Source: Candidatus Peregrinibacteria bacterium GW2011_GWF2_43_17
Lineage (GTDB): Bacteria > Patescibacteriota > Gracilibacteria > UBA1369 > UBA12470
Reading direction: 5' to 3'
DNA length: 49,983 nucleotides
Assembly: GCA_000999315.1 (NCBI GenBank)
Contig: LCFW01000009.1
Location: 1-49,983 of the forward strand
The notes beneath the pieces were generated by a model. That model was not told the DNA's origin, made no database searches, and saw only the letters and a program-made list of their open reading frames with translations. The translations under genes and the position numbers were made by a program. Position 1 is the stretch's first letter. Each line of letters opens with the position of its first letter. Shown piece by piece: positions 19,985 to 28,901 of this stretch.

Positions 19985-20059
19985 GCCGGGATAGCTCAGT
20001 GGTAGAGCAACGCACTCGTAACGCGTAGGTCGTGGGTTCAACTCCCATTCCCGGCTCCA
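19985..20059 (+). tRNA. tRNA-Thr (anticodon CGT)
   Basis: Cloverleaf read by eye: acceptor GCCGGGA/TCCCGGC, D arm GCTC/GAGC, anticodon loop CTCGTAA (reads ACG), T arm TGGGTTCAACTCCCA, discriminator T and an encoded CCA. The last anticodon-stem pair is A-C. It is not adjacent to thrS but serves the same amino acid. Confidence 0.93.
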
Positions 20060-20061
20060 GG

Positions 20062-20129
20062 ATTTTTGTATTGGCTTTCACTGAAGTTGAACGGGATCGC
20101 TGCAGAATCGTTCAAGCCAATACAAAAAT
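20062..20129. repeat. Long inverted repeat between tRNA-Thr and lexA
   Basis: ATTTTTGTATTGGC (20062-20075) and its exact complement GCCAATACAAAAAT (20116-20129), with a nested TTGAACG/CGTTCAA pair inside. It lies between the convergent ends of the tRNA and lexA and may end both transcripts, although there is no U tract after either side. Confidence 0.7.
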
Positions 20130-20154
20130 TCTTGTCATGGTAAGGGTTTTCCTA

Positions 20155-23847: not shown

Positions 23848-23897
23848 GTTGGGTTTAATCACGTTGGATTGCCAAAATACTACTCATTTGCAATTTT

Positions 23898-23940
23898 GGT
23901 CAATGAACTTGGGCTGGAAGTTTTGAGGAATTGTTGAGTG
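23898..23940 (+). repeat. Dispersed repeat B, copy 1
   Basis: The stretch GGTCAATGAACTT...CTGGAAGTTTTGAGG, then GAATTGTTGA, matches 26257-26300 closely. It lies just before hairpin element copy 1. Confidence 0.65.
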
Positions 23941-23950
23941 GTTTGTTTTT

Positions 23951-24031
23951 TAAGGAGATTGCATTCGCAATCGCTTAATAATAAGGTGCGAGGATCGGTC
24001 GCCCCGCTGAGCGGGGCTCCCTTCCTTGCGC
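23951..24031 (+). repeat. Two-hairpin repeat element, copy 1
   Basis: Hairpin 1 is GATTGC-ATTC-GCAATC (23957-23972), preceded by AAGGA. A TTAATAATAAGG link follows. Hairpin 2 has GTGCGAGGA (23986-23994) paired with TCCTTGCGC (24023-24031), enclosing the palindrome GCCCCGCTGAGCGGGGC (24001-24017). See copies at 26461, 26781 and 27561. Confidence 0.7.
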
Positions 24032-24032
24032 T

Positions 24033-24075
24033 GAAAACCATCCTGATGGATTCGAAGTATCTCGATGAAATATGG
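24033..24075 (+). repeat. Dispersed repeat C, copy 1
   Basis: The run GAAAACCATCCTGATGG, then ATTCGAAGTATCTCGATG, recurs with changes at 24896-24940 and more weakly at about 26603-26640. Confidence 0.5.
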
Positions 24076-24139
24076 GAGAAAAGGCTTGCCGGGTTTGGGG
24101 AAAAACCTGGATTTCTTCATGAAGGACATATGTGGTTTT

Positions 24140-24784
24140 TCAGGGCTTGTTTCTATATAATTCCGCATCTTCTCTTGTAATCATATTATCTCCGTTTACA
24201 TCGTCTGCCGCACTGACAAACCCATCACCATTAATATCGTTAGGGATGAAGGAGTCCTCTGTAAGCCTCCTAATAACGATTCCTTGAACAGCGGCTTGCA
24301 TACATTGTATTAACATGTCTTGTCGCCCAATAAGCGTATCGAGTGGAGGTCGTATTTCGTCACCCCAAGACTGTGGTACCTCACCTCTTGCTACAGACGC
24401 ATCAATCCTTGCTAAATCAGCAGTTGTGCAAATAGCGACTTGCCAAGGACGATTTACGTAACCGATAGGAATTGAGAATTCATCAGCCGATATGCGGCTA
24501 TCTGAATCTTCAGGGCCACGTACTCGATCTAATCCACCATTGTAATGATTTACAATTCCCGTACCCGCAGGAACATTATTGGTGATAAAAGAAAGACCAT
24601 CATACTCCCTAATCCAGTTTGAAACATCGCTAATACATGTTTTTCCATTAGGGATTTGCGTATTGCATTCAGCAACAGTTGCGAGTTGATCTATATTGCC
24701 AGTAGTAGGGTTGGCACTACTTGCCAATGCTACATTGGCTACAAGCGATAAGGACCCACCTAATTTTACTAAACGACTAATCAT
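24140..24784 (-). CDS. Secreted protein with a C-terminal dockerin-like EF-hand pair
   Basis: The 214-residue protein has a short signal peptide (about 1-24, ending ALASSA). The middle part (25-180) contains several Cys and is not recognised. The end carries two calcium-loop motifs, DINGDGFVSAAD and DVNGDNMITRED, arranged as in type I dockerin repeats. Dockerins bind cohesins, but no cohesin is seen here, so calcium-dependent folding or attachment is the safer reading. It has the best consensus promoter of the window and flanking repeats, as in acquired DNA. Confidence 0.75.
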   Translation of the reverse strand: MISRLVKLGGSLSLVANVALASSANPTTGNIDQLATVAECNTQIPNGKTCISDVSNWIREYDGLSFITNNVPAGTGIVNHYNGGLDRVRGPEDSDSRISADEFSIPIGYVNRPWQVAICTTADLARIDASVARGEVPQSWGDEIRPPLDTLIGRQDMLIQCMQAAVQGIVIRRLTEDSFIPNDINGDGFVSAADDVNGDNMITREDAELYRNKP

Positions 24785-24817
24785 ATAAATAGATTACGGG
24801 GTATATGTCTGCGTGGA

Positions 24818-24846
24818 ACAGTACCATGTTGTCACGAACTTGTCAA
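24818..24846 (-). promoter_or_regulatory. Promoter of the dockerin-like gene
   Basis: Minus strand TTGACA (24841-24846), exact 17-nt spacer, TACTGT (24818-24823). Predicted start near 24811, 27 nt before the ATG. Confidence 0.7.
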
Positions 24847-24895
24847 TAGGTTGTATCTAAAAAGGCACCAGTTTCCCCAATGCGCGTTTTGTTTT

Positions 24896-24940
24896 TTAAA
24901 ACTATCCTCGTAGATTCGAGGTATCTGGATGGAACGAAAA
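24896..24940 (+). repeat. Dispersed repeat C, copy 2
   Basis: AAAACTATCCTCGTAG, then ATTCGAGGTATCTGGATGGAA, parallels 24033-24075. It lies just after the 3' end of the Fic gene. Confidence 0.5.
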
Positions 24941-24963
24941 TTTTCGACCTGCAATTTTGCATC

Positions 24964-26007
24964 TTAAGCCCAGATATATTTCGCAGTCTTGTAATCGCCC
25001 TCCTTTTTCATAATCCCTAACTCGATATATTTCTGAAACCTCAAGCGTACGGCTTCTGATGTCAGCTTCTTGGAAGTTAACTTAAGCGCTTTTTTCATAG
25101 TCAGCTCGTTGTTTTTCGCGAGATAATTGAGGATTTTTTTATCAAATTTATTCATAATCTTCCATTGCGGCAATGCATGTAATTTCATCAACCTTTCAAT
25201 TAACACCTTGCTATCAAAAACTTTTTGTTGAGATTCCGTAATCCCTTTCAAGTAGAATTCCACAAACTCCGTTAAATCTTTTTGATCTCTTCCCCTGTTT
25301 AGAGCGAAATGATAGCGTTTTACATTTGCGTAATAATATTCAGATAAATTATAGAGTTTTTGCAGGTTATATCCCGCTTTTTTTAGCAACATATCTTCAA
25401 TGACTCTTACAGTCCTGCCATTCCCGTTAATGAACGGGTGAATAGCTATAAAAACGAAATGGAATATGCCCGGAATTATAATTTTGTCCAAAGCATCGTT
25501 ATTGTTTGTAAAATAGTTCAGCTTTTTCATCAATTTGGGTACCTCTTTCGGTTCCGGAAAAGTATAACTAATCTGATCCGTAAAAGGATCTCCAAGATAA
25601 TTTTTTATATTTCTATATCGACCGGCTCTATAATCCGGTTCCGTTAAAGAACCTTTCAGCCCTTCGCTTATTTGACTATGGACATCGATAATCAAGTCAT
25701 CCGAAAGCCTTTTTTTCAGATATTTCGAGATAGCCATGTGGGCATTTGCAACATTCAAAATTTCGCGCTCTTCTTCATTTTTAGCCTTTTTGGAATAAAG
25801 AACTTTTTGCGCCGAGTTGTAATCTATCAAGCTGTATTCGATTTTTGTCGAACTATAAGCTTGCCTTAAATAATTATGTTTAAAGATTTCTTGAAATAAC
25901 TCGTGCGTTATGGATAAGGCATTGAGTTGCTTTTCTTGCTTTTTAATTTGCGAAAGCAATGCTTTTATTTTCGGCGTTTCCGTTAATTCGTAATTTAGTA
26001 TAATCAT
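24964..26007 (-). CDS. Fic-domain protein (class II, self-inhibited type)
   Basis: The Fic core motif HPFINGNGR is at residues 190-198, intact for AMP transfer to target hydroxyls. An N-terminal inhibitory helix motif S-x-x-x-E (SSTKIE, 52-57) marks a class II Fic protein. The C-terminal 60 residues form a winged helix (LTMKKALKLTSKKLTSEAVR), common in this group and perhaps DNA-binding. I use the ATG at 26007 because the predicted transcription start (about 26028) lies downstream of the GTG at 26034. The 347 residues match the family. No antitoxin gene is adjacent. Confidence 0.9.
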   Translation of the reverse strand: MIILNYELTETPKIKALLSQIKKQEKQLNALSITHELFQEIFKHNYLRQAYSSTKIEYSLIDYNSAQKVLYSKKAKNEEEREILNVANAHMAISKYLKKRLSDDLIIDVHSQISEGLKGSLTEPDYRAGRYRNIKNYLGDPFTDQISYTFPEPKEVPKLMKKLNYFTNNNDALDKIIIPGIFHFVFIAIHPFINGNGRTVRVIEDMLLKKAGYNLQKLYNLSEYYYANVKRYHFALNRGRDQKDLTEFVEFYLKGITESQQKVFDSKVLIERLMKLHALPQWKIMNKFDKKILNYLAKNNELTMKKALKLTSKKLTSEAVRLRFQKYIELGIMKKEGDYKTAKYIWA

Positions 26008-26034
26008 TGTCAGGACCTTAAGCCTTACATACAC

Positions 26035-26062
26035 ATAATATCAGATTCCCAGATAAAAACAA
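26035..26062 (-). promoter_or_regulatory. Promoter of the fic gene
   Basis: Minus strand TTGTTT (26057-26062), 16-nt spacer, TATTAT (26035-26040), giving a leader of about 21 nt. Confidence 0.55.
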
Positions 26063-26256
26063 GTAGCTTTACTCCAAATTTACTCCAAGTTTTATTCCAA
26101 GCTTACGGTTATCTGTATTTTGCACCGATACGGTTTATTTCTAACAATGTCCGATTTGTCCTTATGGCGATTTCGTTATTTTATCCATGATTTTATTTCG
26201 TAATAGAGGTCGCTTCGCGACTACGGGTTGTCAAAATAATGCCTTTCTTTAAGTTC

Positions 26257-26300
26257 GGTCAATCCACTTTGACTGGAAGTTTCGTGGAATTGTTGAAATG
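26257..26300 (+). repeat. Dispersed repeat B, copy 2
   Basis: GGTCAATCCACTTTGACTGG, then AAGTTTCGTGGAATTGTTGA, is the counterpart of 23898-23940. Confidence 0.65.
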
Positions 26301-26435
26301 TGTAGGATTCGTTATAGTCCCAGATACAACCCTCCCACCAGCAGAATACAAAGGTCCTTGGGAGATGGGAGCTAAATGTAACACAAATCTTTACTAATTT
26401 TTGCTATTAGTTGTCTCGAATTAACGGAGCACTTT

Positions 26436-26457
26436 GTTGACTTTGTCGACTTTTTTT
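26436..26457 (+). terminator. Terminator-like hairpin without a known gene
   Basis: GTTGAC-TTT-GTCGAC followed by seven T. No plus-strand gene lies upstream for more than 2.9 kb. Confidence 0.5.
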
Positions 26458-26460
26458 CTG

Positions 26461-26505
26461 TAAGGAGTTTCGCATTCGCGAAACAATTTAATAATAAAGG
26501 CCGTC
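26461..26505 (+). repeat. Two-hairpin repeat element, copy 2
   Basis: TAAGGAG, then GTTTCGC-ATTC-GCGAAAC (26467-26484) and a TTTAATAATAAAGG link. The first stem differs from copy 1 by paired changes; the second hairpin is not conserved here. Confidence 0.6.
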
Positions 26506-26681
26506 CAGTCGCCTTCGGCTCACTACCGGCTTCAGGTAGGGGTCGGTTTGATTTTCTACGAAATAAGTCACCTGTCGCTTACGCGAAGGATTCCTTATTT
26601 CTTGAAAATCATCCTTCGCTCTCGGAAGGCTCGATGGAACTCGCCTTCCTACCGCTTCGGAACGCCGCCCTCGCAACAGTC

Positions 26682-26757
26682 TGGTGCCCCCGACAGGAAT
26701 TGAACCTGTAATTACTCCTTAGGAGAGAGTCGTTATATCCATTTTAACTACGGGGAC
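26682..26757 (-). tRNA. tRNA-Arg (anticodon CCT)
   Basis: Minus-strand cloverleaf: acceptor GTCCCCG/CGGGGGC (one T-G pair), anticodon loop CTCCTAA (reads AGG), T arm ACAGGTTCAATTCCTGT, discriminator A and encoded CCA. It lies among repeat elements. Confidence 0.92.
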
Positions 26758-26780
26758 TGGATGTTCTTGAGTTTTTTACA

Positions 26781-26854
26781 TGGAGATCGCCTTCGGCGAA
26801 TCGCTTAATATGTTGCGCGTGGAGCGTCCCGCTAAGCGGGGCTTCCTATAGCGC
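26781..26854 (+). repeat. Two-hairpin repeat element, copy 3
   Basis: TGGAG, then a GATCGCC/GGCGAATC stem (26785-26802), a CTTAATATG link, then GCGC (26815-26818) with GCGC (26851-26854) and GGA/TCC closing CCCGCTAAGCGGG (26828-26840). Its 3' arm overlaps the stop codon of the neighbouring minus-strand gene. Confidence 0.6.
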
Positions 26855-27517
26855 CGTTATCCCCAACATCGGCTTCAAAATTATGTAATCCGTCCTGTCG
26901 ATCGGTAGTTCTTCTTTCTTTTTCACCTCGAATGATTCTAGTGGCTCAACCGTCGTTTTACCAACAGCTTTCAAGAATTCATCGAGCCCTCCTATATCCA
27001 ACTTGGAACCTGGAATTTTGTAATACATCGGGATGACGATTTTTGGCTCGATTTGTTCGATAACTTCGATAGCTTTTTTATAATCTATGACCAAATTCCC
27101 TCCTATCGGGACCAAAAGAATGTCGACATCCCCTATCGACTCGGTCAATTCACTTGTAAGCCTATGTCCGAGTCCGCTCAAGTGGCAAATTTTATACCCG
27201 TTAAAGAAGAAATTGTAAATAACGATTTTGCAGTTTGCGTTTTTTTCATCTTCGGCGCTTTTTGCGAAATGGAAGGCGTTATAACCTTCGATTCCTATAC
27301 CTTTTACCTCATATTCTCCGGGCCAAGAGAAAATTTTCGGTTCTCCTTCAACCTTGGCGACATTGCCTTCGCTGAATACAAGTTCGTCGGACAACGTGAC
27401 AACATCGGCTTTGAGCGCCGGAAGTTTGGTGCCCAGATTGGTGTAAGGATCGGTTACTATAGTCACCCCTTTGTCCTTGATTGTGAAACACGAGTGACCG
27501 TGCCAGATGATTTCCAT
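26846..27517 (-). CDS. Metallo-beta-lactamase-fold protein lacking metal ligands
   Basis: The 223-residue protein follows the UPF0173/UlaG-like fold: HGHSCFTIKDKGVTIVTDPY at the start, WPGEYEVKG, HLSGLGH, VDILLVPIGG and PKIVIPMYYKIPG at the right spacing. The zinc motif H-x-H-x-D-H, expected after DVVTLS at about residues 42-48, is replaced by SDELVFS, and the late His of IPMHY is Tyr. It therefore probably lacks hydrolase activity and may bind or scaffold. It is divergent from eno, with element copy 4 between them. Confidence 0.82.
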   Translation of the reverse strand: MEIIWHGHSCFTIKDKGVTIVTDPYTNLGTKLPALKADVVTLSDELVFSEGNVAKVEGEPKIFSWPGEYEVKGIGIEGYNAFHFAKSAEDEKNANCKIVIYNFFFNGYKICHLSGLGHRLTSELTESIGDVDILLVPIGGNLVIDYKKAIEVIEQIEPKIVIPMYYKIPGSKLDIGGLDEFLKAVGKTTVEPLESFEVKKKEELPIDRTDYIILKPMLGITAL

Positions 27518-27560
27518 ATAACTTTGAGATTAGAGTTTAGAGTAAAGCGGGGATATTTTA

Positions 27561-27624
27561 ACGGAGATTGCATTCGCAATCAAACTTGATAATATGGCGC
27601 AAGGAATACTTCATATCCTTGCGC
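27561..27624 (+). repeat. Two-hairpin repeat element, copy 4, abutting the eno start
   Basis: ACGGAG, then GATTGC-ATTC-GCAATC (27566-27581), a link ending ATAATATG, then GCGCAAGGA (27597-27605) paired with TCCTTGCGC (27616-27624) over a 10-nt loop. The second stem ends 2 nt before the enolase ATG and could affect its translation. Confidence 0.65.
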
Positions 27625-27626
27625 TT

Positions 27627-28901
27627 ATGAATAAAATTACAAAAATTCTTGCCCGTGAGATATTGGATTCGCGTGGAAATCCTACGGTTGAGGTGGATGT
27701 TTACTGCGGAGATGTTTTTGGGCGCGCGGCTATCCCGAGCGGCGCTTCTACAGGTGTACACGAGGCTTGCGAGCTTAGAGATGGTGACGAAAAAAGATTC
27801 CTCGGGAAAGGCGTCTTGAATGCGTGTAAAAATGTCGAAGGTGAGATTTTTAAACGAGTAAAAGGGATGGATGTTTCGAAGCAAGAGGATCTGGATTTCG
27901 CTCTTATCGAACTTGATAGCACCCCTAATAAAGGGCGACTTGGGGCAAATGCGATTTTGGGAGTTTCAATTGCAGCTGCCAAATGCGCGGCCAATCTGAA
28001 AGAAGTTTCTTTATATAAATATTTCGGTGCTCATGCGCATATTTTGCCCGTGCCGATGATGAATATTTTGAACGGCGGGAAACATGCCGATAGCGGGCTC
28101 GATATTCAGGAGTTTATGATTATGCCTGTTGGCGCGAAAACTTTCGTCGAAGCTGTAAGAATAGGAGCCGAGGTTTTTCATAATTTAAAAAAATTATTGG
28201 CGGATGATAAATATTCAACTTCCGTTGGAGATGAAGGCGGTTTTGCACCGACTTTGGCAAAAAACGAAGATGCTTTTGAGTATATTTTAAAAGCCATAAA
28301 AAGTGCAGGTTATAAGGAAGGAACCGACGTCGTATTGGCGATAGATGCGGCGGCCAGCAGTTTTTACGAAGAAACAAAAGGGTACAAGATGAAAATCAAC
28401 GGTAAAGAGGAAGTTTTATCGAGTGCCGATATGGTCGCTTATTATAAAAATTTAGTAAAAAAATATCCCATTGTTTCGATAGAAGACGGACTTGCGGAGG
28501 ATGACTGGAGCGGATTTAGATCGCTAACAGAATCTATCGGAGACAAGGTTCAAATTGTCGGAGACGATCTTTTCGCAACAAATGTAAAAAGATTACAAAG
28601 AGGCATAAATGAAAGCACCGCGAACTCGATTTTGATAAAATTAAATCAGGTCGGAACGATAACCGAGACCATGAATGCGATTCACATGGCGCATGCCGCG
28701 AACTGGACTGCAATCGTATCTCATAGAAGCGGTGAAACGGAAGACACAACGATCGCGGATTTCGTCGTAGGAATGGAAACCGGACAGATTAAAACAGGGT
28801 CTTTGTGCAGGACGGAAAGGGTTGCGAAATACAATCAGCTTATTAGGGTAGAGCAGGAGTTGGGAGACAGGGCGAAGTATATCGGGAAGGATTGGAGATG
28901 A
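27627..28901 (+). CDS. eno: Enolase
   Basis: Converts 2-phosphoglycerate to phosphoenolpyruvate in glycolysis. The 424-residue protein has the N-terminal [23 protein letters not shown] and [11 protein letters not shown] motifs, metal-binding Asp/Glu in VLAIDAAAS and [12 protein letters not shown], the catalytic Lys in [10 protein letters not shown], and the C-terminal SHRSGETED loop. I use the ATG at 27627 since it gives the family N-terminus; an upstream frame start (27594) lies in the hairpin. The only Shine-Dalgarno-like AAGGA (27601-27605) is 22 nt away and base-paired. The gene ends with TGA. Confidence 0.97.

Follow-up and report, generated by a model that had tools for sequence, protein, structure and literature searches.

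The window, by which we mean the whole stretch of 49,983 nucleotides that was analysed (contig C9), belongs to a 1.20-Mb genome and contains exactly four copies of a short element built from two hairpins, all of them on the + strand (Table 1). A metallo-hydrolase gene on the - strand (26846-27517) takes its final two codons and its TAG stop (26846-26848) from the 3' arm of hairpin 2 in copy 3, and copy 4 fills the 5' leader of the enolase gene, whose ORF extends from 27594 with a likely ATG start at 27627. Upstream of copies 1 and 2 there is also a separate 72-nt repeat, 75% identical between its two occurrences (23866-23937 and 26225-26296).

Table 1. Positions of the element copies, their parts and the neighbouring tRNA gene in the window
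Feature	Position	Strand	Foot	Hairpin 1	End of link	Hairpin 2	R2 match (bits)	Remarks
Copy 1	23954-24032	+	GGAG	23957-23972	23984	23985-24032	38.6	
Copy 2	26464-26532	+	GGAG	26467-26484	26497	26498-26532	55.9	Hairpin 2 weak
Copy 3	26782-26854	+		26785-26802	26814	26815-26854	31.1	Hairpin 1 with one bulge
Copy 4	27563-27625	+		27566-27581	27595	27596-27625	46.1	
tRNA-Arg(CCT)	26682-26757	-						Flanked by copies 2 and 3; CCA end empty in the window

These copies had been noticed in a preliminary description of the sequence, at 23951, 26461, 26781 and 27561, and all four are present there. The stems of hairpin 1 are as originally read, GATTGC/GCAATC in copies 1 and 4 and GTTTCGC/GCGAAAC in copy 2, to which we add GATCGCC/GGCG-A-ATC in copy 3. 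An ATTC loop, thought at first to be common to all, is found in three of the copies and is TTC in the fourth. Likewise, the second hairpin that had been assigned to three copies is indeed strong in three, but copy 2 also has a weak one (AA-g-GCCG/CGGCTT). The GGAG start is a weaker feature than it looked, as the corresponding tetranucleotide in a sister genome is often TGAG, AGAG or GGTG. The apex of hairpin 2 in copy 1 contains an additional palindrome, GCCCCGCTGAGCGGGGC. When folded against dinucleotide shuffles, the four copies had z values of -5.1, -2.7, -1.8 and -4.8.

A covariance model (R1) was built from the four copies and enlarged to a second model (R2) with 19 copies, which spans hairpin 1 and the link but takes in no more than the first bases of hairpin 2. 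At E ≤ 0.01, R2 matched 22 sites in the window's 1.2-Mb genome (G000), copy 2 being the best match, and, in the two other genomes of the same family that were compared, 65 sites in Candidatus Peregrinibacteria RIFOXYA2_FULL_41_18 (G002), which belongs to another genus, and one in G001. The search of the genome and its relatives suggested in the preliminary description thus found further copies, and neither of the outcomes that were to count against the element, a lack of such copies or the loss of their pairing, occurred. The distribution of the element is narrow: at E ≤ 1e-4 only four of 89 genomes of the order had matches, namely G000, G002 and two members of a single other genus, and the 84 remaining genomes that lie outside the family had none. 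When 84,980 species were scanned for an exact pattern, in a set that may omit the window's own genome, the matches were 20 stretches in RIFOXYA2_FULL_41_18 and one stray match in a Fibrobacteres genome. Carriage by phages or plasmids was rejected because no element match was found in the viral contigs, phages and plasmids searched. No recent transposition was seen, since even the two most similar copies share just 92% identity. At one place the element is carried inside a larger repeat, as two copies (L050 and L006, at 129 and 135 kb of contig C2) have long similar flanks, with TTTGTCGACTTTTTCTG upstream and CTGTGGTAACACGC...GGGTTTTTGCGCTGAGGGAAGCGG downstream. A region of another genome (G066, L149, approximately 1440-1640) has several GC-rich hairpins with TTTATAT-type links and resembles a tandem array of element-like units.

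Across the family the element is approximately 62-80 nt long and consists of (G)GAG, hairpin 1 (usually 6-7 bp with a loop of 3-4 nt), an AT-rich link of 10-13 nt (CTTGATAATAT), hairpin 2 (approximately 5-14 bp, often with additional palindromes in its loop) and TG; the consensus read from the aligned G002 copies is approximately ATATGGAGTTTTGCATTCGCAAAACRRCTTGATAATATTGCGCAAGGAATGCTTCGCGTCCTTGCGCTG. The order of these parts is fixed, while their stem sequences diverge and pairing is kept through many two-sided changes, as had been proposed from the four window copies. For hairpin 1 (19 copies), 96.7% of the cells were paired, two-sided changes occurred in five of the seven pairs and the covariation score was 0.491 compared with 0.150 for shuffles, a value reached by none of 500 shuffles, although these counts lean towards the model structure because the alignment was fitted to it. 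Hairpin 2 lies almost wholly outside R2 and is supported by folding instead: the median z was -1.89, and z was below -2 in 31 of 64 regions versus two of 64 for flanking control DNA. Its stem bases vary widely among copies (GCGC, GGCC, GAGC, GTGC, GACC and others), and its outer six positions were 87% paired with their own 3' arm versus 42% when arms were exchanged between copies, a comparison in which the arms had been picked as best pairing, so that the folding control is the cleaner test.

Judged by ORF context, most copies are intergenic. Several, however, lie in frame inside conserved genes, in both orientations, namely those for transketolase, CoaBC, endonuclease IV, DprA and PabB, and element-encoded stretches are also present in TrpG/PabA and a glycosyltransferase. 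Four + orientation copies in G002 encode nearly identical stretches of 22 residues of NGVSHSRN type (NGVSHSRNNLYYGARTASLSCA, NGVSHSRNGLNDGAKNASRPCV, NGVSHSRNDLSDGARNASRPSA and GGVSHPRNGLGYGARNASRPSA) in a GmhB-like/cytidylyltransferase protein, a transketolase, a FemAB-like protein and a radical SAM protein. The link TTATAATAT is altered in all four, as it is in the PabB copy of the window's genome, and its in-frame TAA is gone. The solved transketolase structure 6yak aligns on both sides of the insert, with query residues 45-70 (26 residues) facing two residues; the CoaBC alignment requires a 17-residue gap; in endonuclease IV the insert splits the GAHMS motif from the rest of the protein and the alignment begins only after it; and TrpG/PabA has a shortened copy and a gap of eight residues. 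The copies in DprA, endonuclease IV and the glycosyltransferase are in the opposite orientation. In-frame insertions would be tolerated because several of the six frames of the element are often open (mean of approximately three); as this is also the case outside genes, an open frame does not by itself indicate that coding is under selection. One element was found nested within the hairpin-2 loop of another (L068/L083).

The most precise placement of the element is at tRNA genes. Among the R2 matches, 13 distinct copies have hairpin 2 turned towards a tRNA 3' end no more than 80 nt away, and a single opposite-facing match is located at 82 nt (two further entries in the same tRNA-proximity list represent distant second tRNAs or copies). 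Reading by eye the 3' flanks of all 86 tRNAs of the window's genome and G002 (43 each), we found hairpin 2 and the link directly after CCA at 11 of 43 tRNAs in the former and eight of 43 in the latter. The junction is nearly always CCA-NA-stem, that is, two nucleotides separate CCA from hairpin 2, and nearly always in one orientation. Remnants follow the CCA of three more tRNAs in the window's genome (Pro(tgg), Cys and Val), and there are two variants in G002. Occupancy differs between the genera: Met and Gly(gcc) alone carry the element in both (three tRNAs if the Cys remnant is counted), approximately the two expected under independence, and at no fewer than nine loci one genus has the element where the other has an empty site. 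At tRNA-Arg, for example, CCA-[element]-GTTGCGAGGGCGG in G002 corresponds to CCA-GACTGTTGCGAGGGCGG in the window, and as such comparisons are between genera, exact junctions and small deletions are not separable in them.

Other repeats also trail tRNAs in these genomes. A long inverted repeat of TTTTTTGTGTTGTCTCTC...GAGACAACACAAAAAA type, a second such family, follows the CCA of several tRNAs; it is present at 19985-20130 of the window (tRNA-Thr), and the tRNAs of the genome that carry it are Ala(cgc), Ala(ggc), Arg(tcg), Thr(cgt), Trp and the Met and Phe variants. Directly behind tRNA-Arg(CCT) of the window is GTTGCGAGGGCGGCGTTCCGAAGCGGTAGGAAGGCGAG (26632-26681), nearly identical in the other genus (L235). 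Related stretches occur behind Arg(tct), Ser(tga) and Leu(gag) in G002, representing a third tRNA-trailing family.

We consider it likely that the element is a miniature, non-autonomous family of mobile DNA specific to Peregrinibacteria, analogous to REP sequences and Rickettsia palindromic elements (RPEs) and with a strong preference for tRNA 3' ends. This assignment draws on the dispersal of the copies, their insertion in frame and inside one another, the pairing that they keep, their differing occupancy and precision at tRNA ends and the lack of a target-site duplication. The preliminary description had raised two possibilities. That of a REP-like mobile element is well supported by the dispersed copies, the in-frame insertions in both orientations, the nested copy and the genus-dependent tRNA occupancy; that of an RNA motif fared poorly, in view of the symmetry of the stems between strands, the intragenic copies in both orientations and the absence of any Rfam family matching the copies in the window, where only the tRNAs match.

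The main rival is nevertheless a role in RNA, in which the element would be a cis-acting structure at gene 3' ends (a terminator, a tRNA trailer or an mRNA-stabilizing double hairpin) that is read on the opposite strand as gene end, NA, hairpin 2, AUAUUAUCAAG and hairpin 1, and whose copies are kept by selection. Such a role fits the oriented placement, above all the strict orientation and 2-nt spacing at tRNA CCA, and a match from another family (L148) also abuts a tRNA CCA. It is also consistent with the bias towards 3' ends at codirectional genes (17 '-/-' versus six '+/+'). At right-hand flanking genes other than tRNAs the orientation is 26:14, compared with 13:1 at tRNAs, and part of this bias could reflect function at 3' ends. 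Targeting of stop codons was rejected, as the distances to convergent stop codons are spread from -29 to more than 25 nt, and the placement at gene 3' ends is ordinary 3'-end proximity, unlike the sharp spacing at tRNAs.

Several observations argue against an RNA role as the primary cause of this distribution, foremost the intragenic copies in both orientations and the shifting tRNA occupancy, with the occupied tRNAs mostly differing between the genera. A universal need for a hairpin at tRNA CCA was rejected because most unoccupied tRNAs lack one: considering all tRNAs, a stem was found at CCA in nine of 43 and seven of 43, versus four of 43 and seven of 43 in control DNA 70 nt further on. In the gene-sense orientation hairpin 2 is followed by ATATTATCAAG and hairpin 1 by CTCC, with no U-tract after either, so that the pattern of an intrinsic terminator, a GC-rich hairpin with a U-tract behind it, was not found. 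Selection at the RNA level, seen as wobble asymmetry, was also rejected, since the stem mismatches (11 G-T/T-G versus eight A-C/C-A, a small sample of 19 pairs) indicate no G-U excess on either strand. We regard selection for an RNA function as an unlikely explanation for the copies; a secondary role as a 3'-end hairpin or terminator is possible, and any functional 3'-hairpin role is probably secondary.

About equally improbable, in our estimation, is that the element is a classical RAYT-mobilized REP or an IS200/IS605 derivative whose Y1 transposase has been lost or has diverged too far for detection. The GGAG-like foot followed by a hairpin resembles the guide-tag layout of REPs, but the sequence at the tag position varies (GGAG, TGAG, AGAG and GGTG). 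The lack of a target-site duplication is as expected for this class: among 55 copies no flank-repeat length or offset recurred above shuffled pairing, the top scores rest on one to three copies, and a TGTG repeat at one transketolase flank, considered as a candidate duplication, did not generalize. Searches with PF01797 and NF047646 (Y1/RAYT) found nothing in G000 or G002, the genomes richest in copies, whereas the same searches detected RAYTs in G065/G066; a Y1 transposase was rejected as the mobilizer on this basis. A genus with single element-like matches (g47) does encode RAYTs, but those examined (G064/G065) are flanked by different palindromes, GGGGACGGAGGT and ACCTCCGTCCCC. In these flanks the two palindromes are separated by 25 nt (GGGGACGGAGGT...25 nt...ACCTCCGTCCCC; L160, 1351-1407 and 199-245; L161, 1926-1982 and 3087-3135), and they probably constitute a REP family of their own.

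That the copies do not move at all, and are local palindromes of independent origin that template switching has created and perfected, is very improbable, because although nested short palindromes (CCTGCCTGCCGGCAGGCAGG, TCCCGCTAAGCGGGA) fill several loops and the process leaves perfect stems without wobble pairs, it is unable to transfer a 64-nt sequence between loci and is contradicted by the AT link, GAG foot and order of parts common to dozens of unlinked copies and by the 22-codon insertions with one shared peptide in unrelated genes; template switching may still contribute to the perfection of the stems.

It weighs against a mobile DNA family that no mobilizing enzyme was found and no recent transposition was seen. 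We infer that the element would move as a folded single strand recognized by its two hairpins, mobilized in trans by an enzyme that either is not a detectable Y1/RAYT transposase or has since been lost. Gene 3' ends, and most of all the position immediately behind tRNA CCA, would be favoured for insertion or survival. On this view the covariation would arise from the need for DNA hairpins, or from the correction of palindromes via template switching, and not from a conserved RNA function. More speculatively, and with a low probability in our view, the element may represent a new class of mobile DNA hairpins that are inserted by machinery recognizing tRNA 3' CCA ends, candidates being an enzyme acting on structured single strands at the exposed 3' ends of tRNA genes or a step coupled to the 3' terminus of the tRNA itself. 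Such machinery would account for the spacing of 2 nt, for the single orientation and for the absence of a known transposase.

Rickettsia provides the best-known cases of palindromic elements inserted in frame in essential genes, and the Peregrinibacteria element places them in an unrelated ultra-small lineage under strong genome reduction. Its new feature is the nucleotide-precise and orientation-specific occupancy of tRNA 3' ends, for which no bacterial palindromic-repeat precedent was found in the literature searched; that search, mostly of open-access journals, also found no such repeats in Peregrinibacteria and no REPs at tRNA CCA ends. The element also explains, in terms of mobile DNA, why Peregrinibacteria proteins may have unexpected inserts of 22 residues. 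It makes two questions testable: by what route palindromic repeats without a transposase spread, and whether the peptides that they insert are tolerated by host proteins or put to use.

Among known systems, insertion beside tRNA genes is familiar from the retrotransposons of Dictyostelium and yeast, for which it provides a safe site in a gene-dense genome (PMC5006619). Those are autonomous retroelements, however, whereas the Peregrinibacteria element is approximately 64 nt long, has no coding capacity and is placed exactly at CCA. It shares with MITEs and non-autonomous IS200/IS605 derivatives its short, non-coding, dispersed and nested nature, and with IS200/IS605 the lack of a target-site duplication, but it has no terminal inverted repeats joining its ends and no Y1 transposase was detected; the MITEs of DDE transposons differ in their target-site duplications, which were not found for the 55 copies. 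REPs are short palindromes that are mostly extragenic, near gene 3' ends, with some intragenic, and their CGTC class lacks an associated transposase (PMC3733652). The element is similarly a short palindrome in many copies (22 and 65), largely outside genes. It differs in that its foot is (G)GAG-like and not GTAG or CGTC, in that two different hairpins are fixed head-to-tail in place of single units or inverted dimers, and, relative to RAYT-mobilized REPs, in that no RAYT was detected in either carrier genome. The RPEs are small palindromic elements of a small-genome bacterium that encode a recurrent peptide and occur in frame in many metabolic genes unrelated to one another (PMC10969869, citing Ogata et al. 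2000, 2002). They belong to a different phylum, are approximately 150 bp long compared with approximately 64 nt, and differ from the element in its two separate hairpins, fixed AT link and strong tRNA 3'-end preference. The likeness is that the Peregrinibacteria element is also found in frame in genes for unrelated proteins, where it too encodes a recurrent peptide.
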